From Burkholderiales bacterium 39-55-53 (GTDB taxonomy: Bacteria > Pseudomonadota > Gammaproteobacteria > Burkholderiales > Burkholderiaceae_C), in assembly GCA_002282445.1 (NCBI GenBank), contig NCJK01000006.1, forward strand, positions 1-64,000: DNA of 64,000 nt, given 5' to 3'. The notes beneath the pieces are model-generated. The model ran no database searches, was not told the origin of the DNA, and saw only the letters and a list, made by a program, of their open reading frames with translations. Shown piece by piece: positions 138 to 14,639 of this stretch (positions are counted from its first letter, which is position 1; the number at the start of each line of letters is the position of its first letter). Both the position numbers and the translations under genes were made by a program.

Positions 138-659
138 ATGGCCGTTGATCCCACCCGCCCCTCTCAGTTGTTCCAGCGTAAAACACAGGTCGCTTGGATT
201 AACTCAAGCGCACAGTGGACTCATGCTGTGACCCTTACATTCCCGCGCAACAAGCTCGGTATAGCTCCAAGCGAAGAAGCTGCCTGCAACACTGCCAATC
301 ATTTGGTGAACGTACTCAACAGAATTCTGCTCGGTCGTGGGAACGTTCGCAATGGTCACAAGATCGGTTCTGCATTCGTTTTTGGAACTGGGCCGTATGG
401 TGACCATCCTCACATTCACATGGCCCTTGCTGCCCCGCCTAGCCTTTCAAATGAGGCGATGACGCAAGAGATAGATAACGCCATCCACCAAATTGAAGGG
501 CTTGGCCATCAGTTGCTGATCAAGCCTTACAAAGATGCCGGATGGATTGACTACATGCTTGATCATTGCTCAGACGGTTTTGAAGTTGAGTTGAATTTTC
601 CTGCCACGCCTCAAAAAGCGACCTCGGTCTTACCTAAATGGAGTCCGAGAGGTGGGTAA
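138..659 (+). CDS. HUH-endonuclease-like (rolling-circle Rep/relaxase type) protein, module 1
   Basis: This 173-residue protein carries the three marks of a single-tyrosine HUH nuclease. Motif 1 is HAVTLTFP at about residues 29-36. The metal-binding HUH motif is PHIHM near residue 93. A candidate catalytic tyrosine lies in WIDYMLDHC near residue 136. Such enzymes nick one DNA strand and stay covalently attached; roles include replication initiation, transposition and mobilisation. No helicase domain is present. A near twin lies at 7964-8458. There the stop is TGA, but here the same codon is TTA, so this copy reads on for nine extra residues. Its expected upstream partners (integrase, ParB-like) are missing and an IS3-type end lies 33 bases away. 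The HUH call is by motif; its substrate is unknown. Confidence 0.65.
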   Translation: MAVDPTRPSQLFQRKTQVAWINSSAQWTHAVTLTFPRNKLGIAPSEEAACNTANHLVNVLNRILLGRGNVRNGHKIGSAFVFGTGPYGDHPHIHMALAAPPSLSNEAMTQEIDNAIHQIEGLGHQLLIKPYKDAGWIDYMLDHCSDGFEVELNFPATPQKATSVLPKWSPRGG

Positions 660-690: not shown

Positions 691-700
691 CCTAAAGAAA

Positions 701-985: not shown

Positions 986-1026
986 AAGGGCGTTATTCCA
1001 GTTGATTTCGTTTTCAGGAGTTTGTC

Positions 1027-1611
1027 ATGGCAAGTGGTGGCGCAAGATGGGGGGCAGGTCGTCCAGCCCAGCGGTTGAAAGCTGAGAACGCAACATCACT
1101 TGATGTGAACTACCTTTCCCGCAATGGGCATCTCGATGAGGGAAATTGGAAACGTCTTTATTGGCGGCAGTATGGCGAGGTGCGTATGGAGGGATTGATC
1201 AAGGCGTTTGATCGCCACATCACCATTGATATTGGATCAACCACTCATTGGTTGTACTTGACGCGCACGCCTTGTCACCTTGGCGGTTATCGTCGCTGGT
1301 TCATTTGCCCTAAATGCCAAAACCGTATGGCTGTTTTGTATCTGCGCAATAGATGTTTTGGATGCCGCAGATGCCAGAAGATCTCTTACCAATCTCAGTC
1401 TGGTGATGCAGAAGATCGGATGGTTTGGAAGTACCACACGCTAAGCGACAAGGTGTTTAACTGGAAGTTTAAGAAGGCGGCTCGGTTCAACCGAACCTAT
1501 GACAAGTTCTTAGATGTTGCAGACCAGTTTGAAGATTTGGTGGAGCGAGGTCTACAGCGCATTGCCATGGCAGATGGTGGGTATGACGCTACTGCAATTG
1601 GAACCACTTGA
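1027..1611 (+). CDS. Zinc-ribbon DNA-binding-like protein, module 1
   Basis: This 194-residue basic protein has an N-terminal Gly/Arg stretch (GGARWGAGRPA) that recalls AT-hook or terminase-small-subunit tails. A four-cysteine zinc ribbon lies at about residues 97-119 (CPKC, then CFGCRRC), and a basic C-terminal helix region follows. A CAGGAG ribosome site lies 8 bases before the ATG. The paralogue at 8832-9392 is highly similar until the last few residues, where the ends diverge abruptly, marking a module boundary. Its place downstream of a HUH nuclease suggests an accessory role in the element's DNA processing or regulation. The function is unknown. Confidence 0.6.
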   Translation: MASGGARWGAGRPAQRLKAENATSLDVNYLSRNGHLDEGNWKRLYWRQYGEVRMEGLIKAFDRHITIDIGSTTHWLYLTRTPCHLGGYRRWFICPKCQNRMAVLYLRNRCFGCRRCQKISYQSQSGDAEDRMVWKYHTLSDKVFNWKFKKAARFNRTYDKFLDVADQFEDLVERGLQRIAMADGGYDATAIGTT

Positions 1612-1636
1612 CCGAACCGTCCCAGTGGATTACACT
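1608..1636 (+). promoter_or_regulatory. Promoter of the higBA-type operon
   Basis: TTGACC (1608-1613) and TACACT (1631-1636) are separated by exactly 17 bases, a good sigma-70 match. The toxin ATG begins only 7 bases after the -10 box, where transcription should start, so the mRNA may be leaderless. Confidence 0.6.
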
Positions 1637-1642
1637 AATTCC

Positions 1643-1990
1643 ATGTTGACCATCGCAGAGTTATCCACATTTATACGCAGCGCCGAAAAGCTGTTGGATG
1701 CTGGTGAGCGCCAAGATGTGATCCGCTACCTAGCGGAGCACCCCAAAGCTGGCGATGTGATGGAAGGCACTGGTGGTGTGCGCAAACTACGTTGGAGCAG
1801 GGGAAGCCAAGGGAAAAGCGGTGGGGTTCGTGTGATTTACTACTTTCACAATGAATCCATGCCGCTCTATCTGTTGACCCTGTATGCAAAAAATGAGCGC
1901 AGCAATCTAACTAAAGCGCAGCGCAATGATCTGTCTGAATTGACAGCCCTGTTGGTTCGCGCATGGCAAAGGAAACGAAATGAACACTGA
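1643..1990 (+). CDS. higB: HigB-type RelE-family toxin
   Basis: This 115-residue protein has the RelE/HigB-2 hallmarks: GTGGVRKLRW, then GKSGGVRVIYYF, then LYLLTLYAKNERSNL. Family members are ribosome-dependent mRNA endonucleases. The toxin-first order followed by an HTH antitoxin is typical of HigBA. The ATG at 1643 is chosen because it sits directly after a strong promoter and gives the usual family length. No Shine-Dalgarno sequence fits between promoter and start. The gene overlaps the antitoxin by 11 bases. It occupies the slot between the zinc-ribbon gene and the 58-residue small gene; module 2 carries a different toxin-antitoxin pair there. Confidence 0.85.
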   Translation: MLTIAELSTFIRSAEKLLDAGERQDVIRYLAEHPKAGDVMEGTGGVRKLRWSRGSQGKSGGVRVIYYFHNESMPLYLLTLYAKNERSNLTKAQRNDLSELTALLVRAWQRKRNEH

Positions 1991-2267
1991 ATTCGAAAGC
2001 ATCAAACAAGGTTTGCTTGAGGCCATTGATCATGCCGAAGGCCGTTTACCGAAAACCGTTATTCACCGTCCACACGCAGTTGACGTAAAGTCTGTGCGTA
2101 CAAAAATTGGCATGACGCAAGAGCAATTTGCTGCGCGTTTTGGCTTCTCTACTGCGACGCTACGCCACTGGGAAAGAGGTGACCGCGTGCCTCATGGCCC
2201 AGCTTTAGTGTTGCTCAACGTCATCCAACACAATCCGAAAGCAGTGATTGCGGCTTTGACAGCCTGA
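1980..2267 (+). CDS. higA: HigA-type HTH antitoxin
   Basis: This 95-residue protein has a central XRE-type helix-turn-helix (KIGMTQEQFAARFGFSTATL, about residues 41-60) followed by RHWERGDRVPHGPA. It should neutralise the upstream RelE-like toxin and repress their shared promoter. Its start lies inside the toxin gene (11-base overlap), which couples translation. Confidence 0.85.
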   Translation: MNTEFESIKQGLLEAIDHAEGRLPKTVIHRPHAVDVKSVRTKIGMTQEQFAARFGFSTATLRHWERGDRVPHGPALVLLNVIQHNPKAVIAALTA

Positions 2268-2275
2268 CCACAAAC

Positions 2276-2299: not shown

Positions 2300-2322
2300 C
2301 CCATAGTGACACTACCTAAACG

Positions 2323-2499: not shown

Positions 2500-2504
2500 C
2501 GTGC

Positions 2505-2717
2505 TTAGTTGAAGCTAATTTTGTCACCCATGGCAGGCGCTAGTGCTTCATTCAATGCTTTGGCATACGCCATACGTGCGGTTTGATAAGCCGCGGCTTG
2601 GGCTTGCAGGCGCTGCAACTCTTGGTCACAGAACTGCATTGAAATCAATTGAGCTTTGGCTTCGCCGGACAGCTTGTCGTAGTCGTATTCTTTGTTGTCG
2701 ATGTTGATTGTTGTCAT
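2505..2717 (-). CDS. DUF6447-type small protein, module 1
   Basis: This 70-residue protein reads MTTINIDNKEYDYDKLSGEA, followed by a predicted helix rich in Gln and Ala (AQLISMQFCDQELQRLQAQA). This matches the DUF6447 pattern as I know it; the function is not established. Genes of this type are found beside secreted repeat proteins, as here. I chose the ATG at 2717 rather than the one at 2732 because AAAGG lies 8 bases upstream and the module 2 copy starts at the same residue. Confidence 0.65.
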   Translation of the reverse strand: MTTINIDNKEYDYDKLSGEAKAQLISMQFCDQELQRLQAQAAAYQTARMAYAKALNEALAPAMGDKISFN

Positions 2718-2737
2718 GATTTGACCTTTCATAAAAG

Positions 2738-2768
2738 GAAAAACCCCACTACCTTTTGAGTAGTGGGG
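2738..2768 (-). terminator. Terminator of the truncated surface gene, module 1
   Basis: On the - strand CCCCACTAC (2760-2768) pairs perfectly with GTAGTGGGG (2744-2752) around a 7-base loop and is followed by TTTTTCC. It lies between the surface-protein stop and the DUF6447-type gene, so the latter is made by read-through or from its own promoter. Confidence 0.8.
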
Positions 2769-2827
2769 CGGAAGGTGTAGAACCTTAACCAGTCACCCTT
2801 TTGTGGGGTGATTTGGTTTGTTGGCTA

Positions 2828-5155
2828 TTAAGCTGTAACGTCTGCAGCAAATGTTGGCACAGTAGTCACGCCTGTCAACTTAATGAAAATGTCATCAGCC
2901 ACAGTGAACGTTGTGTTTGCACCATTTGTTTCATACAAAACATAAGTGTCGCCACCAAATGTTGCAAAAGAAACACCGAGATCAGTTGCGTTTGCATTAG
3001 CCATTGCATTTGCAATTTGTGCAGCAGTTGAAGTAGATGCGAGAGCAGTAACAGCAGCCTGAACTGCAGTTTGCTCAACAGAAACAACATCCGTAACGGT
3101 CAGGAATTGCAGTTTGTCTGTGCCAGCGACAAAGTCGGTAATAGTATCAAAACCACCGATAGCTGAATGGTTGGCAGCAGCAGCAGCAGCATCAAACGCG
3201 AATGTATCGGCATTTGCTCCGCCTGTCATGATGTCGTTACCAGTACCACCCGTGATTACATCTTCGCCTGCACCAGCACTAATGGTGTCAACACCTGAAC
3301 CGCCTGTAATAGTGTCCACGCCTGTGCCACCATTAATTACGCTACCAATAGTGCTGCTACCTTTGAGTGTGTTGGCACCTGCAGTAGCAGTCATTGTTAC
3401 TTTAGCGAGTGCAGCTGAGAAGTCCAAGACGTCAGTACCACTTGTAGAGCCTGTCACAACTGAATCAGTTGTCAGAGCACCAGATGTCAATGTCACGCCG
3501 GCCTTTGTCACACCAGATGCATTAAATGTAGTCAATGCCGTACCAGTGTGGGTCAAATTCAAACCATTGTCACCGCTTACATTAATTGTGGTTGCATTTG
3601 CATCCGTGAGTGTCATTGTTGCTTTTTGGGCAGTAGTTGACGCTGTGGAATCATCAAGAGCAATGTTCACAGTTTCGACACCAGGGAGCGCAAAAGTACC
3701 AAACACGCGAGCCGCTGTTGACAGATCACCTTTGAGGCTCACATTGATCACATCAGAAGCACCAGTAATTGTGTTCGTAGTAACGCTAGTACCAGCTGCA
3801 CTGTAAGTAGATTCAATGGTTAAACCAGTCGCTGCACCTGTAAAGACTTGAGCAGCCGCGGCAGATGTGAACTTGACCGTATTGAATGTTCCAACCGCAT
3901 CCAAGTCAATAGTTGATGCAGCTTGTGCAGTGATATCCAATGTCTCGAAGCCCGTAACGGCAGTTGCGAAGGCAGTTTGAACGGCGCCAGCAGTAGACAA
4001 GGTAACGGCATTAGCGTTAGACAATTTCAAGGTGTCAGTGCCATCACCACCAGTAATTGAGCCCAAGGCGCCCAAAGCAGTAACCGACACTGTAGCAATG
4101 TCATTGCCAGCACCCAATGCAATAGCCTTATTTGTTGCACCAACAGAAATACGATCTTGACCTGCGCCACCGATTACTGCAGTGTTTACACCAACAGTAA
4201 ATGTGTTAGCACCAGTCAAGGAGCCAGAAGCTGGAGCTGCAGCTGTAGATGCAGAAAGATCCAAAGTTGCCAAGTTTGCAACAGCAGACACATCAGCAGC
4301 AACACCGCCAGAACCTGTAACATTGATTGTAGTCAAGGCAGCATTACCTGCGCCAGCTGTCAATGTGTTCAAGTTTGTACCGCCAAGGTTCAATGTTGTC
4401 GCAAGAGCAGCAACGACAGCTGTAGTCGCTGCGGCATTCGTATTAACGTTAACAGTAGTGGCCTTTGCAACAGTCAATGTACCGAAGTCTTGTGCGCCGG
4501 TCACATTCAAAGTTGCTGTAGTTGCCTGTGCATCAGTTAATCCACCTTGCGTAGTCGTACCAGAAGCATTAATTGTCAGGGCACGTGTACCAGCAGCTGA
4601 AGTAACAGTTGTCAAGCCTGCAACCGCGTTGATATTCACAGTTGTAACACCGTTGCCGTTGATTGCTGCCGAAGCTGCTTTTGTAACTGTAGCTGTATTG
4701 AGCGTGCTACCCTGAGTTGCAGTTGTAGTTGCATCAGTATCAGTGATTGTCACAGCATCAAATGCATTAGCCGTGCTAACGAAAGAGATCGAGGTCGCCG
4801 CAGCCAACACTGCAGACTGAGCGCCAGCACCTGTAGCACCCGCATCGGTAACAGACAATGTTTTCACACCTGTACCGAAAGTTGTATTGGTGATAGCAGT
4901 TGTGTTTGTAGCTGCACCAGTACGGCTGATACTTACATTCTCAAGACCAGAAAATGTTGCAGAAGCTGGGATTGTGAGTGCTGCAGTAGCATCAGACACT
5001 GCTAGATTCAGTGTGTCTGTGCCTAGGCCGCCCACAATTGCGTCAAAAGAGTTCAACGTACCTGCGTTTGCAGCAACAACTGTTCCGTTAAATACATCAT
5101 TGCTTGCAGTACCTGTAACTGTATCCACACCAGTAGTGAGCGACCTATGAGCCAA
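2828..5155 (-). pseudogene. RTX/S-layer-like surface protein, lacking its 5' end
   Basis: The frame encodes 775 residues of Thr/Ala/Val/Gly-rich beta-repeat sequence, with calcium-binding RTX-type nonapeptides near the C-terminus (GGTGVDTITGGSGVDTISAG and the following repeats) and a C-terminal tail typical of type I secreted proteins. It opens directly with LTTGVDTVTG, the position that follows the DUF4214 region in complete relatives such as the gene at 11169-14639. The only available start is a TTG with no ribosome site. The break falls at CGCTCACTACTGGT, a 14-base string also present at the equivalent point of the complete gene. The C-terminus differs from that gene, so it is not a simple recent duplicate. 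It is either a dead remnant or a promoterless storage copy. Confidence 0.7.
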
Positions 5156-5185
5156 AACTCTAAGTTATTGATTTTAAATGCATAA

Positions 5186-5201
5186 ATGCTACTAATAGGC
5201 C
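5186..5201 (-). repeat. 16-base direct repeat, copy a
   Basis: GGCCTATTAGTAGCAT (- strand) recurs with two changes at 5866-5881 in the same orientation. It overlaps the 12-base palindrome AATAGGCCTATT (5194-5205). The rest of 5156-5361 holds no gene I can support. Confidence 0.4.
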
Positions 5202-5361
5202 TATTTATCCGTTTGACCAACGAATGGCCATTGCTTTGGGACAAGCAGCCAGTTCAACCACCCTAGGAAACGAACATTTGATAGAAGGCGCCTCAGCAAC
5301 GTCTTTAAATCTCGGTCAGCCAATGACCCACAAATTACCCAAGCGCGTCAAGTTCGACTAC

Positions 5362-5847
5362 CTAGTCTTTAGCTTTTCGCTTACGCAAAAGGTGCTCTCC
5401 CAATTCAGACAAAGGGCCCTTGATTATTGGACTGATGTCCTGCGGTGCGAGTTGTTGGCTGAGTTCAGTTAAGGGCCCTTTCTTTCCCATCAGCATCTTT
5501 TGCCGAGCGACTTCTTCGCTTGCGAGCGTCAAGGGGCCCTTGCGATCAGACCTGCGTAACGCCTCATTCATTAAACGCAACTCGGCATTGTCCAAGGCTT
5601 GTGTGTCAGCTACTACCGTCAAGTTGCCCCCACTAAAAAAGTCCACTTGCACGCCAGCTTTGCTAAAAATTTCCATTGCCTGAAGCAATAGATCAGCTTT
5701 AGGGCTTACTTCAAGCGTCTCAATACGTGCAATGGTCGACTTCGCAACAGCCATTTCATCAGCAAATTCTTGCTGATTCCAGCCAATTGCAGCACGCGCA
5801 GTACGCAGGGCGACAGCAATCTTCACATTTTTTTTCAAAGATGACAT
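5362..5847 (-). CDS. XRE-family HTH regulator with KGPL repeats
   Basis: This 161-residue protein has an N-terminal XRE helix-turn-helix (about residues 8-65; WNQQEFADEMAVAKSTIARI). The C-terminal half carries three spaced repeats beginning KGPL (KGPLTLASEEV, KGPLTELSQQL, KGPLSELGEHL). The gene diverges from the integrase and is likely its regulator or that of the element. Each KGPL codon run is a near-palindromic AAGGGCCCTT in the DNA. No HipA-like partner follows. The second half matches nothing I recognise. Confidence 0.65.
   Translation of the reverse strand: MSSLKKNVKIAVALRTARAAIGWNQQEFADEMAVAKSTIARIETLEVSPKADLLLQAMEIFSKAGVQVDFFSGGNLTVVADTQALDNAELRLMNEALRRSDRKGPLTLASEEVARQKMLMGKKGPLTELSQQLAPQDISPIIKGPLSELGEHLLRKRKAKD
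5412..5542. repeat. Three GGGCCC palindromes inside the XRE gene
   Basis: AAGGGCCCTT occurs at 5412-5421 and 5471-5480, and the odd palindrome CAAGGGGCCCTTG at 5530-5542. The spacing is 59-60 bases. They encode the KGPL repeats but could also be protein-binding sites. Confidence 0.6.
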
Positions 5848-5865
5848 GGATTCTTATATCCTGTT

Positions 5866-5881
5866 ATGCTACTATTAGACC
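5866..5881 (-). repeat. 16-base direct repeat, copy b, in the XRE/integrase divergent region
   Basis: GGTCTAATAGTAGCAT (- strand) lies between the XRE start and the integrase start, inside a plausible XRE promoter (TTGCTT, 17 bases, CATAAC). It differs from copy a (5186-5201) at two bases. It may be an operator or a recombinase core. Confidence 0.4.
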
Positions 5882-5920
5882 AGAAAAGCAAGTTTATTGA
5901 TCTCTCAAACACAGTTCAAA

Positions 5921-7129
5921 ATGCCCAAACTCAAGTTCACGCCACAGTTCGTCAAGTCAGCTATTTGCGAGCATGGGAAGAGAAAAACACTCTACTTCGA
6001 CATGGATTGCAAATGGCTAGTTCTTGAGGTTCGATCAACTAAGACAGCGACCTATTATCTGCGTTATCAGGATGCTAGAGGCACAACACGCCTATTAAAA
6101 GTTGGGGATTCCAGAGATTTATCGTTGGTGCAGGCACGACAGATGGCCGACAAGTACCGAAGCATGATCGCAATGGGGGAGGACCCAGCTTCCGATAAAG
6201 CTGAACTCAAACAAGTCCCCACGCTTTACGACTTCATACACAACAGCTATCTGCCATTTGTTGAGGGATACAAGCGTTCGTGGAAATGCGACGAAGGCTT
6301 GCTAAGAAAGCACATCGAGCCTGTCTGGGGCAAGAAGTACCTAGACCAGATTAGCAAGGCAGACATCATTTCTCTGTTTGCCAAACACCGCACTACGCAC
6401 GCGCCCGGTTCATGTAACCGCCTGCTCATTTTGTTGCGATACATGTTCTCACTGGCAAAGAAGTGGGAAATTCCAGCCATCAAGAGCAATCCAACGGAAG
6501 GCATTCCGTTGATGAAAGAGGACAACCAACGTGAACGCTTTCTGACGTCTGAAGAAGCACACACCCTCTACGAAGAGCTGAAGCGCTCCGACAACAAGAT
6601 GCTTCAGTACATCGTTCCAATGCTGATCCTGACTGGCGCTCGTAAGCGTGAAGTTCTGGATGCCCGTTGGGAGGACTTTGATTTCGAACGTCGCTCATGG
6701 CGGATTCATACAACCAAGCTGGGGCGTCCACGCCATGTTCCTTTGTCGGATGGTGTGATCTCACTGCTCAACTCCATTCCTCGTTTTGATTGCGAGTGGG
6801 TTTTGCCAAACCCTAAAACGCTCAAGCCATACGTTCAGATCTTTTCTTCATGGGATACAGCGCGCAATGCAGTTGGGCTGAGTGATGTCCGAATGCACGA
6901 CCTGCGTCATTCGTATGCGTCTTTCTTGGTTAACTCTGGTCGAACGTTGTATGAGGTCCAGCGTCTACTGGGTCATACGCAAATCAAGACAACGCAACGC
7001 TACGCACACCTTTCACCAGACACCTTGCTGGATGCCACAAACGCAGCCAACCGAGCCGTTGGTGGAATGTTCCTGCCGTTTGTTGCCGCCTCTGATGCAT
7101 CGACATCACAAATATCTATTGGAGCATGA
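5921..7129 (+). CDS. int: Tyrosine recombinase (P4-type integrase)
   Basis: This 402-residue site-specific recombinase has an N-terminal DUF4102-like arm-binding region (to about residue 90), a SAM-like core-binding domain, and a C-terminal catalytic domain. Catalytic residues visible are Arg in TGARKREVLDARWEDF, Lys in TTKLGRPR, HDLRHS (His-x-x-Arg), LGHTQIKTTQRYAH (His and the nucleophilic Tyr). All are intact, so it should be active. I use the ATG at 5921 rather than an upstream TTG. Its stop overlaps the next start as ATGA, so it is co-translated with the ParB-like gene. No tRNA or obvious attachment repeat was found beside it. Confidence 0.9.
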   Translation: MPKLKFTPQFVKSAICEHGKRKTLYFDMDCKWLVLEVRSTKTATYYLRYQDARGTTRLLKVGDSRDLSLVQARQMADKYRSMIAMGEDPASDKAELKQVPTLYDFIHNSYLPFVEGYKRSWKCDEGLLRKHIEPVWGKKYLDQISKADIISLFAKHRTTHAPGSCNRLLILLRYMFSLAKKWEIPAIKSNPTEGIPLMKEDNQRERFLTSEEAHTLYEELKRSDNKMLQYIVPMLILTGARKREVLDARWEDFDFERRSWRIHTTKLGRPRHVPLSDGVISLLNSIPRFDCEWVLPNPKTLKPYVQIFSSWDTARNAVGLSDVRMHDLRHSYASFLVNSGRTLYEVQRLLGHTQIKTTQRYAHLSPDTLLDATNAANRAVGGMFLPFVAASDASTSQISIGA

Positions 7130-7962
7130 CCATGGGGCAATTGAAACTTATTGCACTTGATCAGATTCGCATAGATGGCGCTACGCAGTTCCGAGACCAA
7201 ATTAACCAAGACGTGGTCAAAGAATACAAACAGGCAATGCTCGACGGAGCGGAGTTCCCACCGATGCAGTGCACGTTCGATGGAAAGCATTACTGGCTTT
7301 GGGACGGATTTCACCGTTACTTAGCCATCAAGTCGATTGGCATCAAGCAGGCCGAGGTGGAGTTCATGCCCGGTGCCCAAGAGGACGCACAGGACTTGGC
7401 ATTGAGTGCCAATGCACACCATGGCCACAACCGCAACAACGAGACCAAGCGCAAGCAAGTTGAAGCAGCTCTAGCCATGACTCGCCACGCTGAGAAAAGC
7501 AATCGTGAATTGGCCAAGCTGTGCCAAGTGTCCGACAAGTTTGTGGCTGCAATCCGCAACCTAGAGGCCAAGGAAAAGCAAGAGAGCAATCGCAAAAACT
7601 CAAACGAGAAGAAATACTCTAGCGCTCAAAATGATGGCAAGTGCGATCCGATCGCACTTGACGTCAATCTGACGGATTCACCTGCCATTGAAGGGCAACA
7701 CCTTGATCAAGGCCACGCCCCCGACGAGGAAGAGTTGAAGGCGATGGAGCTTGCCATGGAAGCCGACCGCAAATTACTGAACGACATACTTGACTCGAAC
7801 GAGCCCATGAAACTCCTCCACGACGAGGTGACTCGCTTGAACTACTTGGTGGCTCAAAAAGAAATCCGCATCGCGTCACTCATGAACGAAAAGAATACAG
7901 CAGTGAAGATGGTGAACGATTTGCAACGCCAAGTTGATAGGGCTAATCAGCGTCGGAATTGA
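7126..7962 (+). CDS. ParB-like nuclease-domain protein with coiled-coil tail
   Basis: This 278-residue protein has a ParB/Srx fold in its N-terminal 90 residues, with the conserved DGFHRYLAIKSIG box. An HTH-like region (SNRELAKLCQVSDKFVAAI) lies near residues 125-143, followed by a hydrophilic linker and a heptad-rich C-terminal coiled coil (about residues 225-275). ParB-fold proteins bind CTP and DNA or act as nucleases; which applies here is not clear. It overlaps the integrase stop by 4 bases and ends one base before the HUH gene. No ParA is present, so a classical partition role is unlikely. Confidence 0.7.
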   Translation: MTMGQLKLIALDQIRIDGATQFRDQINQDVVKEYKQAMLDGAEFPPMQCTFDGKHYWLWDGFHRYLAIKSIGIKQAEVEFMPGAQEDAQDLALSANAHHGHNRNNETKRKQVEAALAMTRHAEKSNRELAKLCQVSDKFVAAIRNLEAKEKQESNRKNSNEKKYSSAQNDGKCDPIALDVNLTDSPAIEGQHLDQGHAPDEEELKAMELAMEADRKLLNDILDSNEPMKLLHDEVTRLNYLVAQKEIRIASLMNEKNTAVKMVNDLQRQVDRANQRRN

Positions 7963-7963
7963 T

Positions 7964-8458
7964 ATGGCCTTCGACCCCACTCGACCCACAATGTTGTTGT
8001 TACGTAAAGAGCGCGCTGCTTGGATCGACTCAAGCGCGGTGTGGACTCATGCTGTGACGCTAACCTTTCCGCGAAGCAAGTTTGGCATCGCTCCAAGTGA
8101 GCAAGCCGCTTGCAACACTGCCAATCATTTGGTGAACGTGCTCAACAGAAATTTACTGGGCCGTGGGAACGTTCGCAATGGTCACAAGATCGGTTCTGCA
8201 TTCGTTTTTGGAACTGGCCCGTATGGTGACCATCCTCACATTCACATGACTCTTGCTGCCCCGTCAGGGCTTTCACATGAGGCGATGAAGAAAGAGATTG
8301 ATAACGCCATCCATCAAATTGAAGGGCTTGGCCATCAACTGGTGATCAAGCCTTACAGCGATTCTGGCTGGATCGAATACATGCTTGACCACTGCTCAGA
8401 CGGCTTTGACGTCAAGTTGGTTTTTCCCACCACGCCAGAACAAGCGACCTCGGTCTGA
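7964..8458 (+). CDS. HUH-endonuclease-like protein, module 2
   Basis: This 164-residue protein is close to the module 1 protein: motif 1 HAVTLTFP, HUH motif PHIHM, and tyrosine in WIEYMLDHC. I use the ATG at 7964, which gives the same N-terminus (MAFDPTRP) as module 1 and follows the ParB-like stop by one base. It should be co-expressed with the integrase, an unusual pairing because tyrosine recombinases and HUH nucleases are separate mobility chemistries. About 87 bases around the HUH motif are almost identical to module 1 while the flanks differ more. The TGA stop lies at the base of a hairpin. Confidence 0.65.
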   Translation: MAFDPTRPTMLLLRKERAAWIDSSAVWTHAVTLTFPRSKFGIAPSEQAACNTANHLVNVLNRNLLGRGNVRNGHKIGSAFVFGTGPYGDHPHIHMTLAAPSGLSHEAMKKEIDNAIHQIEGLGHQLVIKPYSDSGWIEYMLDHCSDGFDVKLVFPTTPEQATSV

Positions 8459-8518
8459 CCTAAATGGAGACCGAGCGGTGGGTGACAGGGCTTGGGCCTT
8501 GATTAGGCGAACTCACCC
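8450..8518 (+). other. Hairpin array at the 3' end of the HUH gene, module 2
   Basis: TCGGTCT (8450-8456) pairs perfectly with AGACCGA (8468-8474) around an 11-base loop that holds most of the HUH stop codon. A second structure has an outer stem GGGTGA/TCACCC (8480-8485 with 8513-8518) and an inner hairpin GCCT-TGATT-AGGC (8496-8508). The layout is shared with module 1. Candidate roles are a HUH nicking site or a 3' RNA structure. Confidence 0.45.
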
Positions 8519-8778
8519 TAAAGAAAAGTGACAAGCAGGACAAGGCTGGATGGGACAGACAAGAACGGCACTTACGGATCAAGCTGGACAAGGCTTACTC
8601 CCTTCAGGTCTATTCCTTCCTCCCCTACGGGAAAGGCATAAGCAGGATGCTTTCTCTCAATGTTTTTGCGCGGCGCGCATTGCACATTTGGACTCTTTAA
8701 GGAATGCGTCGCCGCCTTCTCAAAGAGGCACGCAAGCGGCTTTGTTTTAGTTCGAAGGGGTCTGTGTGTTTCAAGTAA
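8503..8778 (+). pseudogene. Degraded counterpart of the small protein at 701-985
   Basis: Read in the frame aligned with 701-985, this gives KLDKAYSLQVYSFLPYGKGI, then RMLSLNVFARRALHIW, then a TAA at 8698-8700, then RRRLLKEARKRLCFSSKGSV and a final TAA at 8776-8778. It has no clear start codon. The segment between the shared GACAAGGCT and TATTCC is 60 bases in both modules, and other gaps are multiples of three, supporting past coding function. Confidence 0.35.
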
Positions 8779-8831
8779 ACATCTCCTTCAACGGGCGTAA
8801 ATCCAGTTGATTTCGTTTTCAGGAGGTTTGC

Positions 8832-9392
8832 ATGGCAAGAGGTGGCGCAAGATGGAGGGCTGGTCGTCCAGCGCATCGATTGAAAGCAGAAGACACAACG
8901 GCACTTGATGTGAACTATCTCGCGAGAAACGGCTATCTGATCGATGGCAACTGGAAGCGTGTTTATTGGAAGCGATTTGACGAGATACGTTTGACGGGGC
9001 TTATCAAGGCATCTGCTCGCTACATCACCATTGATATTGGATCAACTTCGCATTGTCTTTTCTTGACGCAAACACGCTGTCACCTTGGAGGTTATCGTCG
9101 CTGGTTCATTTGCCCAACATGCCAAAATCGCATGGGTGTTTTGTATCTCGGAAACAGATGCTTTGGGTGCCGCAGGTGCCAAAAGATCTCATACCAGTCA
9201 CAGTCTGGTGATGCCGAAGATCGGATGGTGTGGAAGTACCACTCGCTATCAGACAAGGTGTTTAACTGGAAGTTAAAGAAGGCGGCTCGGTTCAGCCGAA
9301 CCTATGACAAGTTCTTAGATGTTGCAGAACGATTTGAGGATCTGGTGGATCGCAGGTTCCAGCGAATTGCTATGGCTGATGTTAATTATTGA
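8832..9392 (+). CDS. Zinc-ribbon DNA-binding-like protein, module 2
   Basis: This 186-residue paralogue of the gene at 1027 has the Gly/Arg-rich start (RGGARWRAGRPAH), the four-cysteine ribbon (CPTC, then CFGCRRC) and the same basic C-terminal half (MVWKYHSLSDKVFNWKLKKA). AGGAGG lies 5-6 bases before the ATG, a strong ribosome site. The upstream string CCAGTTGATTTCGTTTTC is shared exactly with module 1. Similarity ends a few residues before the stop, suggesting that the mobile module ends here. The function is not known. Confidence 0.6.
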   Translation: MARGGARWRAGRPAHRLKAEDTTALDVNYLARNGYLIDGNWKRVYWKRFDEIRLTGLIKASARYITIDIGSTSHCLFLTQTRCHLGGYRRWFICPTCQNRMGVLYLGNRCFGCRRCQKISYQSQSGDAEDRMVWKYHSLSDKVFNWKLKKAARFSRTYDKFLDVAERFEDLVDRRFQRIAMADVNY

Positions 9393-9441
9393 ATCCACTT
9401 AACATAATCACCTTTGATCAACGATCATTCAATTTTGTTGG

Positions 9442-9479
9442 TTGCATGATCAATTTAGTTGTGCCACAATGTAGCTACA
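9442..9479 (+). promoter_or_regulatory. Promoter and operator of the relBE-type operon
   Basis: TTGCAT (9442-9447) and CACAAT (9465-9470) are 17 bases apart. The perfect palindrome TGTAGCTACA (9470-9479) touches the -10 box, a fitting place for an antitoxin operator. Confidence 0.45.
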
Positions 9480-9492
9480 AGTGGGGGTTTAT

Positions 9493-9756
9493 ATGTCTAG
9501 CAATGCCGTAGTTCGCGCTCGTATTGATGAGCAAATTAAAGAAGAGGCCAGCGTCGTGTTGGCCACTATGGGGCTTACTGTCTCGGATGCATTGCGCATG
9601 ATGTTGACTCGTGTTGCGCGCGAGCAATCTCTGCCATTTGAACCACTTGTACCAAACGCTACAACCATCAAAGCCATGCGTGAAGCACGTGCTGGCAAAA
9701 CTACCAAACACAAATCACTTGACTCGTTGATGGCTGACCTACATGCGGGTGATTGA
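9493..9756 (+). CDS. dinJ: RelB/DinJ-family antitoxin
   Basis: This 87-residue protein has an N-terminal ribbon-helix-helix (VVRARIDEQIKEEASVVLAT, then MGLTVSDALRMMLTRVA), the DinJ/RelB signature, and a C-terminal tail that should wrap the toxin. I choose the ATG at 9493 over an in-frame GTG at 9481 because it gives the family N-terminus. It overlaps the toxin gene by 14 bases and is expected to autoregulate. Confidence 0.85.
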   Translation: MSSNAVVRARIDEQIKEEASVVLATMGLTVSDALRMMLTRVAREQSLPFEPLVPNATTIKAMREARAGKTTKHKSLDSLMADLHAGD

Positions 9757-10024
9757 GAAAACTGGTCAATTCAAACGCGACTACAAACGAGAATCTAAAG
9801 GGCAACATCGCTTAGTGCTTGATGCCTCGTTGCTCGCCGTTCTTCGGTTGCTAATACAAGACAAGCCACTGCCAACAAAGTATCGCGATCACCCGTTAAG
9901 CGGCGACTGGAGCGACCATCGTGATTTGCATATCAAGCCTGACTTAGTTCTGATTTATAGGCTTCCAGATAACGGTACTTTGCAGCTAGTGCGTATGGGA
10001 TCACATAGCGAACTTGGCCTGTAA
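9743..10024 (+). CDS. yafQ: YafQ/RelE-family toxin
   Basis: This 93-residue protein matches the YafQ pattern: FKRDYKRESKG near the start, LPTKYRDHPLSGDWSDHRDL in the middle (with the His/Asp residues typical of the YafQ active site) and LVLIYRLPDN. The family cleaves mRNA on the ribosome. It forms a standard antitoxin-first pair with the preceding gene. The pair sits in the same slot as higBA in module 1. Confidence 0.85.
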   Translation: MRVIEKTGQFKRDYKRESKGQHRLVLDASLLAVLRLLIQDKPLPTKYRDHPLSGDWSDHRDLHIKPDLVLIYRLPDNGTLQLVRMGSHSELGL

Positions 10025-10121
10025 TTTACAAGTCGTTCAGAGCTTGATGCATTCTTTGCATCTGTGAAAGACTCGATTTCAAAAATAAAAAAGCTCCGCA
10101 TCAGTGAGGCTCTCATCCGTT

Positions 10122-10134
10122 GCTCACACCAGCA
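10122..10134. repeat. 13-base direct repeat, left copy
   Basis: GCTCACACCAGCA is repeated exactly at 10662-10674 and brackets the gene at 10165-10647. The right copy is the 3' end of the 58-residue gene; the left copy lies beside the module's terminator remnant. The insert between the copies is about 540 bp. Confidence 0.6.
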
Positions 10135-10164
10135 GGTCTTAGTATTCCAGTCTGCAGAGCCGAA

Positions 10165-10647
10165 TCAAGCACACCAAATTGGAAGGTTGTATTTCAAATA
10201 ATTAATTGCTGCACCAAACACTTCATCAAGCGCCAATCTAGACCCATTCTCTAGAGTTACGAATAGCATCGATTCGTGTTCGGTTACTGGATTGCCTCCT
10301 ATGAATGAGAAATGAACGCCAGTGATCTGGGAATCCGATGACGCAACTTTCCCATTAGGAGTTGAAACAACTGCATGCTTGTGTGCGGTAGCTATATCAT
10401 GCAATATGCCTAATTCTGGACACTCCTGTAACAACTCAAGTCGGAAAGATTTTTTCTTATCTTTTAATGTAGTTTTGTCTGCGTCAGGATTAAGCTGAAC
10501 TACAACCCACTCTTGTAGATGCCATAAACACGTTGCAAGGTTGAATGCAGATCGAGCTGTCTTAGTCCGTTCATATTCGATTGCATTTGGTTCAACTACT
10601 TCTTGCCAATAATGGTGTGCGTTGTGAATGCCAAGAACAGTTTGCAT
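10165..10647 (-). CDS. Hypothetical alpha-helical protein in an inserted segment
   Basis: This 160-residue protein contains FNLATCLWHLQEWVVVQLNP near residues 35-54 and PELGILHDIATAHKHAVV around residues 77-94. This layout resembles small helical proteins of genomic islands. It has no signal peptide or membrane segment. I do not recognise the family with confidence; a HEPN-like fold is possible, but the R-x4-6-H motif is not obvious. The 13-base direct repeats on either side suggest that it arrived as a unit. Confidence 0.5.
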   Translation of the reverse strand: MQTVLGIHNAHHYWQEVVEPNAIEYERTKTARSAFNLATCLWHLQEWVVVQLNPDADKTTLKDKKKSFRLELLQECPELGILHDIATAHKHAVVSTPNGKVASSDSQITGVHFSFIGGNPVTEHESMLFVTLENGSRLALDEVFGAAINYLKYNLPIWCA

Positions 10648-10661
10648 GTCTTAATGTACAA

Positions 10662-10674
10662 GCTCACACCAGCA
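10662..10674. repeat. 13-base direct repeat, right copy
   Basis: This is an exact copy of 10122-10134. It overlaps the last codons and stop of the 58-residue gene (10664-10840). Confidence 0.6.
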
Positions 10675-10840
10675 ACAGCACATTCTCCCCATCCAACCCA
10701 GCATCAGGCAGACCTGTGATCACCACACGGTCGTCTTTGCCTTCACTGCTGATGTGCAGATAAGCACCGTTCTCTAAAGGTAGCCAACCGATGGACTCGG
10801 CGGCTAGCCCAGCTAGTTCTTGCTCGAGGTTGGGGAGCAT
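10664..10840 (-). CDS. Conserved 58-residue small protein, module 2
   Basis: This counterpart of 2323-2499 has 58 residues with nine substitutions, mostly conservative (F/L, D/E, V/I, D/N). It ends with the identical string TGLPDAGLDGENVLLLV. It begins 5 bases after the stop of the DUF6447-type gene, just as in module 1, so coupling is likely. The function is unknown. The conserved length, frame and position argue that it is translated. Confidence 0.65.
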   Translation of the reverse strand: MLPNLEQELAGLAAESIGWLPLENGAYLHISSEGKDDRVVITGLPDAGLDGENVLLLV

Positions 10841-10845
10841 GGTGC

Positions 10846-11064
10846 TTAGTTGAAGCTGATCTTGTCGCCTTGGATTGCTTCAGCAGCTAGCGATGCTTGC
10901 AGTGCTTTGGCATAGGCTTGGCGTGCAGTTTGTAATGCAGCACCCTGCGCTTGAAGGCGCTTTAGCTCTTGATCACAAAACTGCATGGAGATCAGCTGGG
11001 CTTTTGCTTCGGCGGAGATTTTGTCGCTGTCGTATTCTTTGTTATCGATGGTTATAGTGGTCAT
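10846..11064 (-). CDS. DUF6447-type small protein, module 2
   Basis: This 72-residue protein begins MTTITIDNKEYDSDKISAEA, followed by a Gln/Ala-rich helix region. The ATG at 11064 is preceded by AAGGAT. A longer frame upstream only translates the terminator region and is not used. It lies downstream of the intact surface-protein gene, separated by a strong terminator. The family function is not established. Confidence 0.65.
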   Translation of the reverse strand: MTTITIDNKEYDSDKISAEAKAQLISMQFCDQELKRLQAQGAALQTARQAYAKALQASLAAEAIQGDKISFN

Positions 11065-11086
11065 AAAAATATCCTTTTTAACAAAA

Positions 11087-11117
11087 AAACCCCACCCCCT
11101 TATGAGGGATGGGGTTT
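11087..11117 (-). terminator. Terminator of the intact surface-protein gene
   Basis: On the - strand AAACCCCA pairs with TGGGGTTT (one internal mismatch lower in the stem, then CCC/GGG) and runs into a T-rich tail. It lies between the surface-protein stop and the DUF6447-type gene, as in module 1. Confidence 0.75.
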
Positions 11118-11168
11118 GTAGGTTTTTAACCTCACCCCGTGCCAAAGCCTGGGGTTTGATTGGACTTA

Positions 11169-14100
11169 TTAAGAGTAGATAACTGAGCCAGTTGCAAATG
11201 CTGCAGCCAAGAGTGCGAGTGAAGTAATTCCAGTCAAGTTAGCCAATTCAACTGCGTCGTTAGCAGTTTCACCGTTTGCATCGTAAGCAACTTTAGCTGT
11301 GTTTGTATCGGTATCAAAGAAGATAACCGTTACTTCACTTGCCGCTGCAAAAGTACCTGCAGCATAAGCTGCAGCAACGTTGGCATAACCCACAGCGGTC
11401 AATACAACAATTTCATCAGTGGTAGCAACACCGGCAGCCGCACCTTCAAAGTAGGTGTTAGCAGCGGGAGTTCCGACAACAATTGACAAGAAGTCTGCTG
11501 CGGAGAAGTCTGTAATGACATCCAAATCAGCTTCTGTAATCTGAACAGCGAAGGTATCAGCACCAGCGCCACCAGTCATTACATCCACGCCATCACCACC
11601 AATGATTGTGTTGGCAGTAGCAGAACCAACAATGTAGTCAGCTAAGTTGGTGCCAGTTACGTTGTTGATGTTTGCCAATGTGTCAATCACAGAAGCGTTG
11701 GTGTTCGACTCGTTGCTGAACAAGTAAGTCGATGAACCTGCTGCGACGCTTGCTTGCAGTGAAGTCAAGAAAAGAGCACTAGCTGTGTTCACTGCAGTTG
11801 CAGTCAAAGCATCAGCACTCAAGTTGATCACAGCACCTGATGTAGTGCCAGAACCAGCTTGCTCAACAACGTTTGCAGAAGAGAACACATAAGTGTTGGT
11901 GCCTGCACCGCCATCGATCACGTCAGCAGCTGAGCCGCCAGTGATGGAGTCGTTACCTGCATCGCCATTCAATGTGTTGGCTTTGGTAGCCGAACCGGTG
12001 ATGGTGTCGTTACCAGCACCACCGTTGATGGTTACGCCAGCAACAGCAGCTGAGGCAGCGTTCAATGTGTCGTTACCTGCACCGCCAGTGATGGTGGCCG
12101 CTGCGGCCAAAGCTGCAGTTGTGTATGTAACTGGACCAACTGTGACTCCAGAAGCGTTGAACGAAGTCAAAGCAGTACCCAAATCGCTGTTGGCGAAGGT
12201 CATGCCAGCGTTACCTGTGATAGTCACAGTTTTCACTGAAGTGCTGTCCAAATTAGCGTCAAAAGCTGTTGCTGCAGCTGTTGTGTCGCTATCTGTAGTT
12301 GTGATGGTCAATGTTTCAATGTCAGCCAAAGTCAAGGAGCCGGCGTTGGCATAGCCATCAGTGCCAGTCATACCCAAGTTGAAACTGTCGTTGGTGCCAG
12401 CAGCGAATGCAGCGCCAGACAGAGTCACGTTTTGTGCAGTACCCAACAAAGCAGTTTGATTGAACGTACCGCCAGTAGTGAAACCGGAGATCACTTGGGC
12501 GCGAGCACCACCAGTAGATGCAGTAGCACCAGCCGATGTCACGTGGTTGTAGTTGTTCATGTTGGCCAAGTTAACTGTCACACCAGCAGCATCAGCGTAA
12601 GCACCCAAAGACAAACGCTCAACGTTAGTCACTTTGGCAGCAAAAGCAGCGCTTGCAGTTGCGGTTGCAGCGTCAGCGGCAGCCATCAACAATGTGTCAG
12701 TACCGTCGCCACCATTGATGCTACCTGTACCCAATGTAGAGGCAGTGATCGTGTCATCACCAGCACCAGTGTTAATGGTTCCTGTAGCGCCAGCGCCAGC
12801 AGTAACCTTATCCACAGTGGCTGAACCAGTGTAAGTAGCAGCAGCAGTCAATGCGCCAGCCAATTCAACAGTGCCAGTAGATGTGTTGACAATAGTAGTT
12901 GTCAAAGTGCCACCCAAAGTGTTGGCTGTCAGTTTCAGGCTGCCAGAACCAGCAATGTTCAATGTGGTCATGTCGGCAGCAACTAGATCGGCGATCACTG
13001 TTGTACCAGTGTTGGTCAAGTTGATCGTCGTGAAACCGTCATCAGCAGCAGCTTCAGAGTCAGTAATTGTGTTTGTGCCAGTCAAAGTATTGGTGTTCAA
13101 GGCCAATGTGTTTGCTGTAGGAACGGCTGTCAAAGCACCGCGGCTGATGCCCATTGTGCCGCCTGTGCCGCCCAATGTGACGCTGGTCAAAGCGCTTGAG
13201 TCAACTGTTGAGTTGCCAAAGTTTGTCAATGAGACTGAAGCAATGGAACCAGCCTTAGTTGCGTCAGCAGCGTTAACGTCGGTGATAGTGACAGCACCGT
13301 TGAGGATGTCTACCACAGTAGCAGTTGCACCAGCAGCGGCAGCTGTTTGAGTCACAGTTACCGATGTTGTATCAGCAGTACCGGTAACACCAACCGCACC
13401 GACCGTCAATGAGTCACCGGTATCATCACCAGTACCAGCAGTAACAAAGCTGTTAACTGTAACTGTTGTACCACCGGTGATGGAGATTGTGGAACCAGTT
13501 GCATCAACGTTACCTACACCGTCAACACCTGTTTCTGTGTGAGTTACAGATACAGCACCCTTAGCGGCAGTTGTAGCACCGATGATGATTTGACCTGATG
13601 TTGCTGGACCGTTGGTCAATGTAACTGAATCTGCAGAAACTGTAGTGACGTTTTTGCCACCGTTAACTGAAAGTTCCGCAGCATTAGTACCGTCGCTAGA
13701 CAGTGCAGTAGCGCTTGCAATTACGTCTGTTGTAGCTGCTGCTACGATGGCGATGTCGTCTGTACCAGTAACGTTCAATTTTGTGATACCAGCGGTAGCC
13801 CAAGCGGCCGCTGTTGTGTCTGCTGTAACGCCAAGTGAGCCATTGATGCTCAATGTTTCCATGCTCTTCACTGAAGCACCGACAGGCATTGCGAGTGTGT
13901 AGGCCGTTGCGTTAGCAGCAGCGTCATTCAATGTCAAAGAGTCTGTACCTGTACCACCATCGATAGCGTCGCCGATTCCGAATGTAGCTGCGGCAATACC
14001 CACTGTCGCGATAAATGTGTCGTTGCCAGTTGTCACAGTTGACTTTGTAACATCGGCTTGCAGGTTGCCGGAGATATCCGAACCAGTAGTGAGCGTGAAA

Positions 14101-14639
14101 GTCGAGCCAGCAGCGCCGCCGACAGCCACAACAGCAGCAGCAGCTGTATCAACAGCAGCAACAGCAGTTGCCAAGTTAGCAGCAGTAGTCACGCCAGCCA
14201 ACCATGTTTTGGCAGCTGCGTTAGCAGTTGCGCCTGTGTAACCCAAGATCTCAGCGTTTGTGTCCAAAGCTGCTGTGAAAGCAGTAGCAGCAGTCACGCG
14301 GCTATCAACTGTCACCTTGTCGGTACCTTGAGAACCAGCAGAAACTGCCAGAGCCAAGTTAGCAACAGAAATATTGCCAGCTTCAACTTGACCTGCCCAG
14401 TAGAGCAAGCCAGAAGCTTCAGCATCACGACCGAACAAGTTTTGGTAAACCACGTTCACTTTTTGCGCACTTGTCAAACCGCTGAATGCAGCTGAGTACT
14501 CAGTTTGCTGAGCGAATGTTGCGTACAGGTCAGCAACTGAACCTGTGTAAGCTTGCCAGTAAGCCAAGCCAACTGGGTCCGCTGGGCGGCTGAAGAATGT
14601 GACGTACGCTTGTTGAATTTGCGCAGTTGTTAGTGCCAT
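11169..14639 (-). CDS. Large secreted RTX/S-layer-like protein with DUF4214 N-terminus
   Basis: This 1156-residue protein starts MALTTAQIQQAYVTFFSRPA, a DUF4214-type region extending to about residue 110 (FFSRPADPVGLAYW, LFGRDAEASGLLYW). A very long Thr/Ala/Val/Gly-rich beta-repeat body follows. RTX calcium-binding repeats lie near the C-terminus (GGAGNDTITG, GDAGNDSITG, GGAGADTF). It has no Sec signal peptide, consistent with type I export, though no exporter is in the window. It probably forms a surface layer or adhesin. AACGAGG lies 8 bases before the chosen ATG. Longer upstream extension is possible but lacks support. A CRP-type site lies about 110 bases upstream. Confidence 0.8.
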   Translation of the reverse strand: MALTTAQIQQAYVTFFSRPADPVGLAYWQAYTGSVADLYATFAQQTEYSAAFSGLTSAQKVNVVYQNLFGRDAEASGLLYWAGQVEAGNISVANLALAVSAGSQGTDKVTVDSRVTAATAFTAALDTNAEILGYTGATANAAAKTWLAGVTTAANLATAVAAVDTAAAAVVAVGGAAGSTFTLTTGSDISGNLQADVTKSTVTTGNDTFIATVGIAAATFGIGDAIDGGTGTDSLTLNDAAANATAYTLAMPVGASVKSMETLSINGSLGVTADTTAAAWATAGITKLNVTGTDDIAIVAAATTDVIASATALSSDGTNAAELSVNGGKNVTTVSADSVTLTNGPATSGQIIIGATTAAKGAVSVTHTETGVDGVGNVDATGSTISITGGTTVTVNSFVTAGTGDDTGDSLTVGAVGVTGTADTTSVTVTQTAAAAGATATVVDILNGAVTITDVNAADATKAGSIASVSLTNFGNSTVDSSALTSVTLGGTGGTMGISRGALTAVPTANTLALNTNTLTGTNTITDSEAAADDGFTTINLTNTGTTVIADLVAADMTTLNIAGSGSLKLTANTLGGTLTTTIVNTSTGTVELAGALTAAATYTGSATVDKVTAGAGATGTINTGAGDDTITASTLGTGSINGGDGTDTLLMAAADAATATASAAFAAKVTNVERLSLGAYADAAGVTVNLANMNNYNHVTSAGATASTGGARAQVISGFTTGGTFNQTALLGTAQNVTLSGAAFAAGTNDSFNLGMTGTDGYANAGSLTLADIETLTITTTDSDTTAAATAFDANLDSTSVKTVTITGNAGMTFANSDLGTALTSFNASGVTVGPVTYTTAALAAAATITGGAGNDTLNAASAAVAGVTINGGAGNDTITGSATKANTLNGDAGNDSITGGSAADVIDGGAGTNTYVFSSANVVEQAGSGTTSGAVINLSADALTATAVNTASALFLTSLQASVAAGSSTYLFSNESNTNASVIDTLANINNVTGTNLADYIVGSATANTIIGGDGVDVMTGGAGADTFAVQITEADLDVITDFSAADFLSIVVGTPAANTYFEGAAAGVATTDEIVVLTAVGYANVAAAYAAGTFAAASEVTVIFFDTDTNTAKVAYDANGETANDAVELANLTGITSLALLAAAFATGSVIYS

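Follow-up and report, generated by a model that had tools for sequence, protein, structure and literature searches.

An integrase-bearing element that appears to sit inside a surface-protein gene and to bring its own C-terminal part

We analysed a stretch of 64,000 nucleotides (the window; positions 1 to 64,000 of contig NCJK01000006.1) from Burkholderiales bacterium 39-55-53, in which a tyrosine integrase (INT), a ParB-like protein, a putative HUH endonuclease (HUH) and a zinc-ribbon protein (ZNR) are encoded inside what looks like an integrative element lodged in a gene for an RTX-type surface protein. The first-pass annotation, made from the window's sequence alone, had described the four genes as tightly packed at 5921-9392, and this is borne out. 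As it had also stated, the INT stop codon (TGA) overlaps the ParB start (ATG) at 7126 (ATGA), and HUH starts at 7964, behind the ParB stop at 7962; an open upstream TTG start for INT also exists at 5897. Feature coordinates are collected in Table 1, and genomes, contigs and loci are cited by our own numbers (G, C and L).

Two identical copies of the 14-bp sequence CGCTCACTACTGGT, directly repeated on the minus strand at 5129-5142 and at 14082-14095, mark the ends of the element; they stand in the same codon phase and lie about 8.95 kb apart. The left repeat, adjoined by the XRE-type regulator and the integrase, opens the RTX-like reading RTX1 (2828-5142), where it is read as LTTG and no N-terminal domain precedes it. 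The right repeat lies in the complete gene RTX2 (11169-14639), which consists of an N-terminal part with DUF4214, the core and RTX repeats. Between the two cores we find XRE, the integrase, ParB, HUH, ZNR, RelBE, a hypothetical gene, two small genes and the RTX2 C-terminal part. A BLASTN comparison of the RTX1 and RTX2 C-terminal parts shows only stretches of 35 and 50 bp in common, against 78% identity over 452 bp for the small genes that follow them. RTX repeats are present in RTX2 and also in 11 of the 20 displaced parts scanned, RTX1 included. Two features expected of an integrative element are present, namely an integrase gene at one end and a direct repeat in the target on either side. 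It seems that a surface-protein gene houses the element, which brings its own in-frame C-terminal part and displaces the old one; most simply, the integrase would have driven the insertion and the element would have supplied the new C-terminal part. We consider it highly probable, from the arrangement of the sequence, that the four genes are part of an integrative element of about 8.95 kb that swaps the C-terminal part of a surface protein by recombination at the core. Both ends, the same reading phase, the truncation at the core, the tandem copies and the recurrence in other genomes are read directly from the DNA. We infer the S-layer name from the RTX repeats, DUF4214, type I secretion neighbours in two genomes, and SapC.

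Table 1. Features of the element and of the adjoining older copy (element A) in the window
Feature	Position	Strand	Remarks
HUH gene, element A	138..659	+	
ZNR gene, element A	1027..1611	+	
RelE/HTH toxin-antitoxin cargo, element A	1514..2267	+	by Pfam
Displaced RTX1 C-terminal part	2828..5142	-	open, start-less; probable end of older tandem element A
Left attachment core CGCTCACTACTGGT	5129..5142	-	first codons (LTTG) of displaced RTX1 C-terminal part
XRE-type regulator	5362..5847	-	divergent from integrase
Tyrosine integrase INT	5921..7129	+	Pfam PF00589 Phage_integrase and PF13356 Arm-DNA-bind_3; family-defining gene
ParB-like gene	7126..7962	+	phage-like; variable part
Putative HUH endonuclease	7964..8458	+	HPHIH motif, Tyr139
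Hairpins at and after HUH gene end	8449..8519	+	L163 and copy A have similar ones; possible nick site or regulator
Zinc-ribbon protein ZNR	8832..9392	+	CxxC...CxxC
RelBE-type toxin-antitoxin cargo	9481..10024	+	RelB by Pfam; RelE by position and reading
Hypothetical protein, 160 aa	10165..10647	-	relative found in Polynucleobacter array
Two small genes, one DUF6447-like	10664..11145	-	counterparts behind RTX1 at 2323-2732
Element-borne RTX2 C-terminal part	11169..14095	-	in frame with resident N-terminal part
Right attachment core, same 14 bp	14082..14095	-	in frame in intact RTX2, between DUF4214 N-terminal and C-terminal parts
Resident N-terminal part of surface gene (DUF4214)	14096..14639	-	sole strong copy in genome; two weak matches on contig 3

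The block from HUH to ZNR occurs a second time, as had been noticed at first pass, at 138-1576 with 80.7% identity over 1441 bp. At 0.18 for HUH and 0.19 for ZNR, the ratio of nonsynonymous to synonymous change (dN/dS) of the two copies shows that the likeness is not due to chance, and both appear to be kept as proteins. We suggest that the stretch 1-5142 is an earlier tandem insertion of the same kind of element (element A), with HUH, ZNR, another toxin-antitoxin pair, small genes and the RTX1 C-terminal part. The sharp end of the similarity, proposed earlier as an edge of the element, does exist (at 9381/1576, a few codons short of the ZNR stop), but the 14-bp repeats are the better supported edges, and the boundary near the ZNR stop is the junction of a shared backbone with a variable toxin-antitoxin slot. 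Different toxin-antitoxin pairs occupy this slot in the two copies (1514-2267 and 9481-10024). As for the proposed recurrence of HUH, a small frame and ZNR, it stands for HUH and ZNR and fails for the small frame, since the listed frames differ between the copies. A conserved small protein between HUH and ZNR was rejected on the same ground, the segment also being mostly missing in a Limnohabitans locus (L163) described below. An end of an IS3 element at 1-137 had been suggested and is plausible, the reverse strand there resembling what we take to be the start of IS3 OrfA, but the contig (contig 9 of a 2.56-Mb genome) begins at base 1 and offers no sequence beyond. Relatives of the integrase hint at a Limnohabitans-like host of the Comamonadaceae.

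Both ends were seen in seven elements: those of the window, G296, G273, L161, L162, L173 and Yoonia (L202/L268). The identity from end to end amounts to 14 bp in the window, 20 bp in G296, 56 bp in G273 (where the flagellins are homologous), 9 bp in L161 and 12 bp in L173. G296 holds a complete element of 15.7 kb with the identical 20-bp core at both ends, and ABC, HlyD and OEP genes lie upstream of the N-terminal part of its intact gene; the displaced and replacement C-terminal parts share, beyond this core, one 93-bp stretch at 73% identity. The element of G273 (L117, L128) splits a flagellin gene. An intact flagellin gene comes first, followed by a gene whose product has a Rep-type domain (PF23343), one of 297 aa, the integrase, XRE and a second flagellin gene, in which the shared reading opens with INSAKDD, at position 34 of the Flagellin_N model. 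Toward their conserved ends the two flagellin genes match at 81% over 378 bp and at 84% over 437 bp, and in the middle they diverge. G273 likely carries a tandem too, because the match of the second flagellin extends past the genes. The intact gene of Yoonia contains CGCTCACT, with HlyD before it and SapC after it, and the other end, in L202, has the same 8 bp.

Tandem arrays are a further feature of these loci. In Polynucleobacter sp. 31A-FELB, four integrases of the same orientation lie within 32 kb, and to the left of each stands a surface-like part; three of these parts open at LTTGID and the fourth reads PLTTSSA. There are likewise four integrases in Yoonia (two per direction), two in Vreelandella (one direction) and four copies in Limnohabitans sp. 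Rim28.

Among 84 genomes of the genus, the core pattern gave six matches and the control none. Three of the matches are in the genome of the window, two in G455 and one in G462 in unrelated genes. The third core of the window's genome belongs to an RTX part on contig 12 beside an integrase of 43% identity, and those of G455 belong to a truncated RTX part beside an integrase and to an intact surface gene. On contig 12 (G000:C12:157000-170331, L085), this start-less RTX part stands beside an integrase of another clade, and a further integrase and a gene that we read as pntB-like come next; further on, a 60% relative of the integrase in the window is accompanied by genes of AbiE-like and primase-like type. 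Between integrase and core, L085 and L087 have 122 bp of mostly non-coding DNA, 73% identical, with repeated ACGACG/CGTCGTT that are candidate arm-type integrase sites.

Across the order, an integrase at E 1e-60 was present in 17 of 399 genomes. Within the 1.5 kb fetched at these 17 loci (L111-L127), an RTX motif was found in two (L121, L123); a truncated flagellin stands beside the integrase in L117, and a wider fetch revealed an RTX part in G296. G236 (L123) has a truncated RTX gene, XRE and integrase in the order of the window. In G270, the displaced part is followed by a member of the PF10119 methyltransferase family, which is the family behind the intact gene of G455, and this fits the displacement of a resident end.

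A wider scan with seven integrase queries gave 79 loci, drawn from the best 80 of 121 matches. We divided these into a near group (the first 56 loci, integrase identity at least 46%) and a distant group (the other 23, 39 to 45%), and counted near loci with at least 1.5 kb upstream (37), asking for a surface-like open reading frame (ORF) that starts at most 3 kb from the integrase on the opposite strand. Such an ORF lies beside the integrase in 28 of the 37 near loci against none of 20 distant ones, and on the downstream control side in one of 52 near and none of 18 distant loci. By our reading, 26 of the 28 are truncated at the 5' end, and the remaining two (L185, L208) carry the N-terminal part and are untruncated. 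Going by record names, the 28 loci come from 22 genomes; L206 repeats the G296 contig, so the independent count is 27 of 36, and both the composition thresholds for surface ORFs and the LT motif were chosen once the first cases had been seen. Within 400 bp of the integrase, a strict pattern picks out an XRE-like frame in 12 of 56 near loci and none of 23 distant ones; by tblastn, XRE relatives occur in 25 of 91 loci (the 79 integrase loci and 12 others), adjacency to the integrase being seen for some of them. In a tree of 80 integrases (sequences with stops or below 300 aa left out), the surface-linked integrases are scattered over the near group and none falls in the distant group, and two small near clades, L197/L205/L207 and L210/L211/L212/L214, have no surface link. 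The group spans Alpha-, Beta- and Gammaproteobacteria.

The core appears to be conserved as DNA. A protein-motif search lists 23 of the 79 loci with an LT junction, among which we regard the matches in L210 and L186 as chance and that in L213 as misplaced, and the junction in L178 reads CTT ACT. Leaving out these four and adding the window, contig 12 of the same genome, G455, G270 and G236 to the 19 motif-placed junctions gives 24 (the intact RTX2 not counted). Leucine is encoded by CTC in 21 of the 24, where the genes' own codon usage predicts 2.7, and threonine by ACT in 19 of the 24, where 7.4 are expected. The window, contig 12 and G455 are circular in this test; without them CTC and ACT each stand at 18 of 21. 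This excess points to a conserved DNA site beyond a protein motif. One Comamonadaceae genome has three integrase copies (L169, L191, L193) beside three different surface-type genes, with frames opening near a Cys-Ile-Thr codon run, likely a second core type. In Pseudomonas (L184, L186), related integrases adjoin a surface-like gene of a different kind that may be truncated and lacks the LTTG core, a further type of target.

The four genes do not form a fixed unit. Their order INT-HUH-ZNR recurs once, in Limnohabitans ND3_Bin_13 (L163), behind an XRE-like gene and with the INT/HUH overlap ATGA; HUH and ZNR there are 46% and 52% identical to those of the window, and tblastn found no ParB relative in this locus. 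Conversely, L169 has a ParB relative (43%) behind its integrase and L164 one (31%) in the vicinity of its own, and the search detected no HUH relative in either locus. The proposed conserved order of all four proteins thus holds for INT, HUH and ZNR in this one locus and not for ParB, and a single conserved operon was rejected, ParB and HUH being separate among L163, L164 and L169. Among 109 cargo proteins scanned (107 of 162 picked, and two from G273), no Pfam family occurs in more than four. Because ParB, HUH and ZNR vary among loci and no cargo family exceeds four, we regard them as parts of some elements; in the loci compared, the recurring set is integrase, core and surface part, often with XRE. 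The window ParB matches the phage family phrog_1033 (PHROGs), is 78.5% identical in nucleotides over 777 bp within the gene to a phage contig (L047, 7914-8813; dN/dS 0.12), and has a relative in MW202545 at 39% identity over 98% of its length. In L047, the start of a phage helicase-like gene overlaps the ParB-like stop with the same ATGA.

HUH and ZNR have no significant family match in Pfam or PHROGs, and NCBIfam was uninformative. The three HUH proteins (window, copy A and L163) share WTHA.T, HxH and YMLDH with a conserved tyrosine, and a TLTF stretch that reads TVTS in L163. A structure model built from the three sequences is of low confidence (predicted local distance difference test, 63), and its order of strands and helices presumably fits HUH-type proteins. 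Hairpins by the end of the HUH gene are alike in the three copies, with folding z-scores of -2.8, -1.2 and -1.3. As a family marker HUH was of little use, since no relative outside this genome turned up in plasmids or phages (tblastn), viral contigs, the 399 order genomes or the first genome-contig scan, and the sole outside relative (L163) surfaced through the integrase scan. ZNR relatives are common (22 of 399 genomes, own included, and 27 plasmid records); ZNR was rejected as a marker, none of 20 fetched stretches having a HUH or ParB relative by BLAST and the ZNR relatives lying in other islands. On plasmids, an HUH-type gene precedes the ZNR relative in four of five Psychrobacter (L050, L054, L057, L061) and three of five Rhodobacterales records (L051, L053, L055) and not in four others, possibly an undescribed two-gene module.

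Several observations weigh against the interpretation of the locus as a swapping element. Eight other genomes of the genus have a related integrase (E 1e-30), and the core occurs only in G455. No such junction was seen in 13 of the 17 order loci, some being short contigs or more distant integrases, and nine of the 37 related integrases have no surface-like ORF by the criterion used. Truncated RTX parts stand beside an integrase with no N-terminal part in reach on contig 12 of the window's genome, in G455 (C49), G270 and L159, and at the last Polynucleobacter copy. The ends of L162 have just 6 bp in common, and blind 12-mer matching of the two ends was not discriminating, with true pairs in 7 of 79 and 0 to 5 after permutation. 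The integrase end of element A lies past the start of the contig. The HUH label is itself weak, drawn as it is from the HxH motif, the TLTF stretch and the conserved tyrosine, and a Foldseek search with the low-confidence model returned nothing at E 0.001, and none of the 50 matches listed is an HUH structure. An empty site, which the first-pass annotation had hoped to find in close relatives, is not demonstrable, because the N-terminal surface part (E 1e-20) occurs only in this genome among the 84; the nearest substitute is the intact surface gene of G455.

From this anatomy we infer a scheme in which integrase activity, the expression state of the C-terminal parts, switching, a benefit through phage escape and roles for HUH and ZNR are all supposed. 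The integrase would recombine the element core (CGCTCACTACTGGT, LTTG), set between the integrase-side arm region and the start-less RTX C-terminal part, with the same core within the resident surface-protein gene. Integration would fuse the resident N-terminal part in frame to the C-terminal part of the element, and push the old C-terminal part out beyond the integrase-bearing end of the element, presumably leaving it silent. Further insertions at one and the same core would build tandem arrays, and excision would restore an older version. XRE probably controls the integrase. In view of the shared motifs, the nearby hairpins and the HUH-ZNR pairs on plasmids, we propose that HUH makes the nick in the excised circle from which rolling-circle replication or mobilisation would start, and that ZNR is probably its DNA-binding helper; ParB and the toxin-antitoxin genes would be variable parts. 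Phage escape as the benefit is a guess, made because the targets are surface-type genes. More broadly, there may be a widespread class of such elements in Proteobacteria: self-propagating surface-part cassettes with a codon-level core in S-layer-like or flagellin genes and a replacement C-terminal part as constant payload, whose arrival rewrites the receptor surface and whose tandem accretion and excision would keep a heritable record of coats in the manner of an integron, with phages as the probable selective force. We give this wider proposal an even chance.

A different account would see an ordinary gene-restoring island, whose integrase uses a conserved spot in surface genes and whose replacement end keeps the gene working, with switching as an unselected side effect. 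The same anatomy would be expected of it, and the diversity of the cargo described above suits it. Replacement and displaced parts are, however, no near-copies of each other, those of G296 sharing the 20-bp core and 93 bp at 73%; moreover, displaced parts are open over 352 to 1573 codons, and the targets seen are surface-type genes, though our criterion itself seeks such genes. We regard this account as a real possibility that remains somewhat doubtful. It is unlikely that the arrays represent a host-owned, non-mobile cassette system (shufflon- or integron-like) grown by gene duplication beside a resident integrase: integrases do adjoin host genes at the end of a row (contig 12, G455 and G270, which form one clade, and the fourth Polynucleobacter copy, not in the tree), but other units carry their own integrase with unrelated cargo, and the integrase group spans three classes of Proteobacteria. 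The closeness of ParB to phage genes and its low dN/dS would agree with a phage satellite or prophage remnant that parasitises a helper by means of a captured ParB-like gene; no capsid or packaging gene was recognised between the cores (Pfam, with PHROGs on the four genes and the copy only) and the sister locus L163 has no ParB relative, so we find this quite improbable. Least credible of all is a HUH-driven transposon (IS91/ISCR-like or rolling-circle) with the integrase as passenger, for although HUH-ZNR is duplicated at 81% identity and similar pairs occur on the Psychrobacter and Rhodobacterales plasmids, the ends coincide with direct repeats in target codons and the junction is kept in loci where tblastn with four HUH queries, and Pfam on the cargo sample only, found no HUH. 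The idea that two mobility chemistries are coupled here, put forward at first pass, is not needed, because the surface-gene junction goes with the integrase family, mostly where this limited search detected no HUH gene.

Should the swapping element be real, a mobile element would spread by entering a receptor gene and alter the receptor, so that its fitness would be tied to phage pressure. Surface layers and flagella are phage receptors, and to our knowledge the mechanisms of surface variation in environmental bacteria are largely open. Circles, C-terminal switching and altered phage adsorption would be predicted in Polynucleobacter sp. 31A-FELB and Limnohabitans sp. Rim28. The start-less RTX genes beside integrases, which annotation may label as pseudogenes, would be explained, and the similar arrangements in other bacteria suggest a route for changing the outer coat.

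As to known systems, the element looks integrative, as first claimed, and no named family was found for it. No conjugation genes (type IV secretion system) were recognised among the genes between the cores, and the HUH protein alone could at most allow mobilisation. Known RNA families gave no convincing match in 1-16000, and defence-system models gave weak regulator-type matches only. The arrangement resembles gene-restoring elements such as e14 or phage 21 in icd and islands in tRNA genes, where a site-specific integrase uses a core within a gene and the element supplies a replacement end that keeps the gene intact; there the replacement is a near-copy of a short end, whereas here it is a different, long C-terminal part, and displaced parts pile up in arrays. 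Integrons hold rows of start-less or promoterless cassettes behind one expressed position. The rows described here are alike, but most of the units seen come with an integrase of their own, and what serves as the cassette is one gene's C-terminal part; the integrase scores 59 with TIGR02249, below the cut-off of 265. The pairs of HUH-type and ZNR genes on plasmids share the order of an HUH-motif gene (annotated as inovirus-type Gp2 on Psychrobacter plasmids) and a ZNR relative. Their HUH proteins differ, with no detectable similarity to ours (hhalign P 0.11 in a profile comparison that also took in the G273 protein), and no tyrosine integrase adjoins them in the parts examined, except one about 2 kb off in L055.

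The islet at the flk locus of Escherichia coli is reportedly excised by an integrase and is said to carry a whole second flagellin gene. Going by the titles of two papers cited in PMC7018530 (J Bacteriol 2008, NAR 2012), this islet mediates flagellar phase variation; a change of flagellin is common to both cases, reportedly through a whole second gene there and, as proposed, through a split gene with a C-terminal swap here. The GInts (PMC5385486) are tyrosine-recombinase islands with short imperfect direct repeats and variable cargo, as here, but their ginABCD operon encodes three integrases besides a small helix-loop-helix protein; the cores of the window enclose one integrase and not the ginABCD set, integrases of this family being often accompanied by XRE. 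PinQ/e14 inversion blocks the adsorption of phage T2, according to PMC12529663, and is alike in that a recombinase makes a chimeric gene and phage adsorption is changed in PinQ/e14, the difference being a serine recombinase and the inversion of a prophage segment in place of an inserted mobile C-terminal part. An account of the integrase/core/surface-part arrangement was not found among the matches listed in the open literature, to which the search mostly extended, rather than to subscription papers. Gene-restoring elements and an islet that changes flagellin are thus already known, and the apparent swap of a long surface C-terminal part by a mobile element is the new aspect suggested here.

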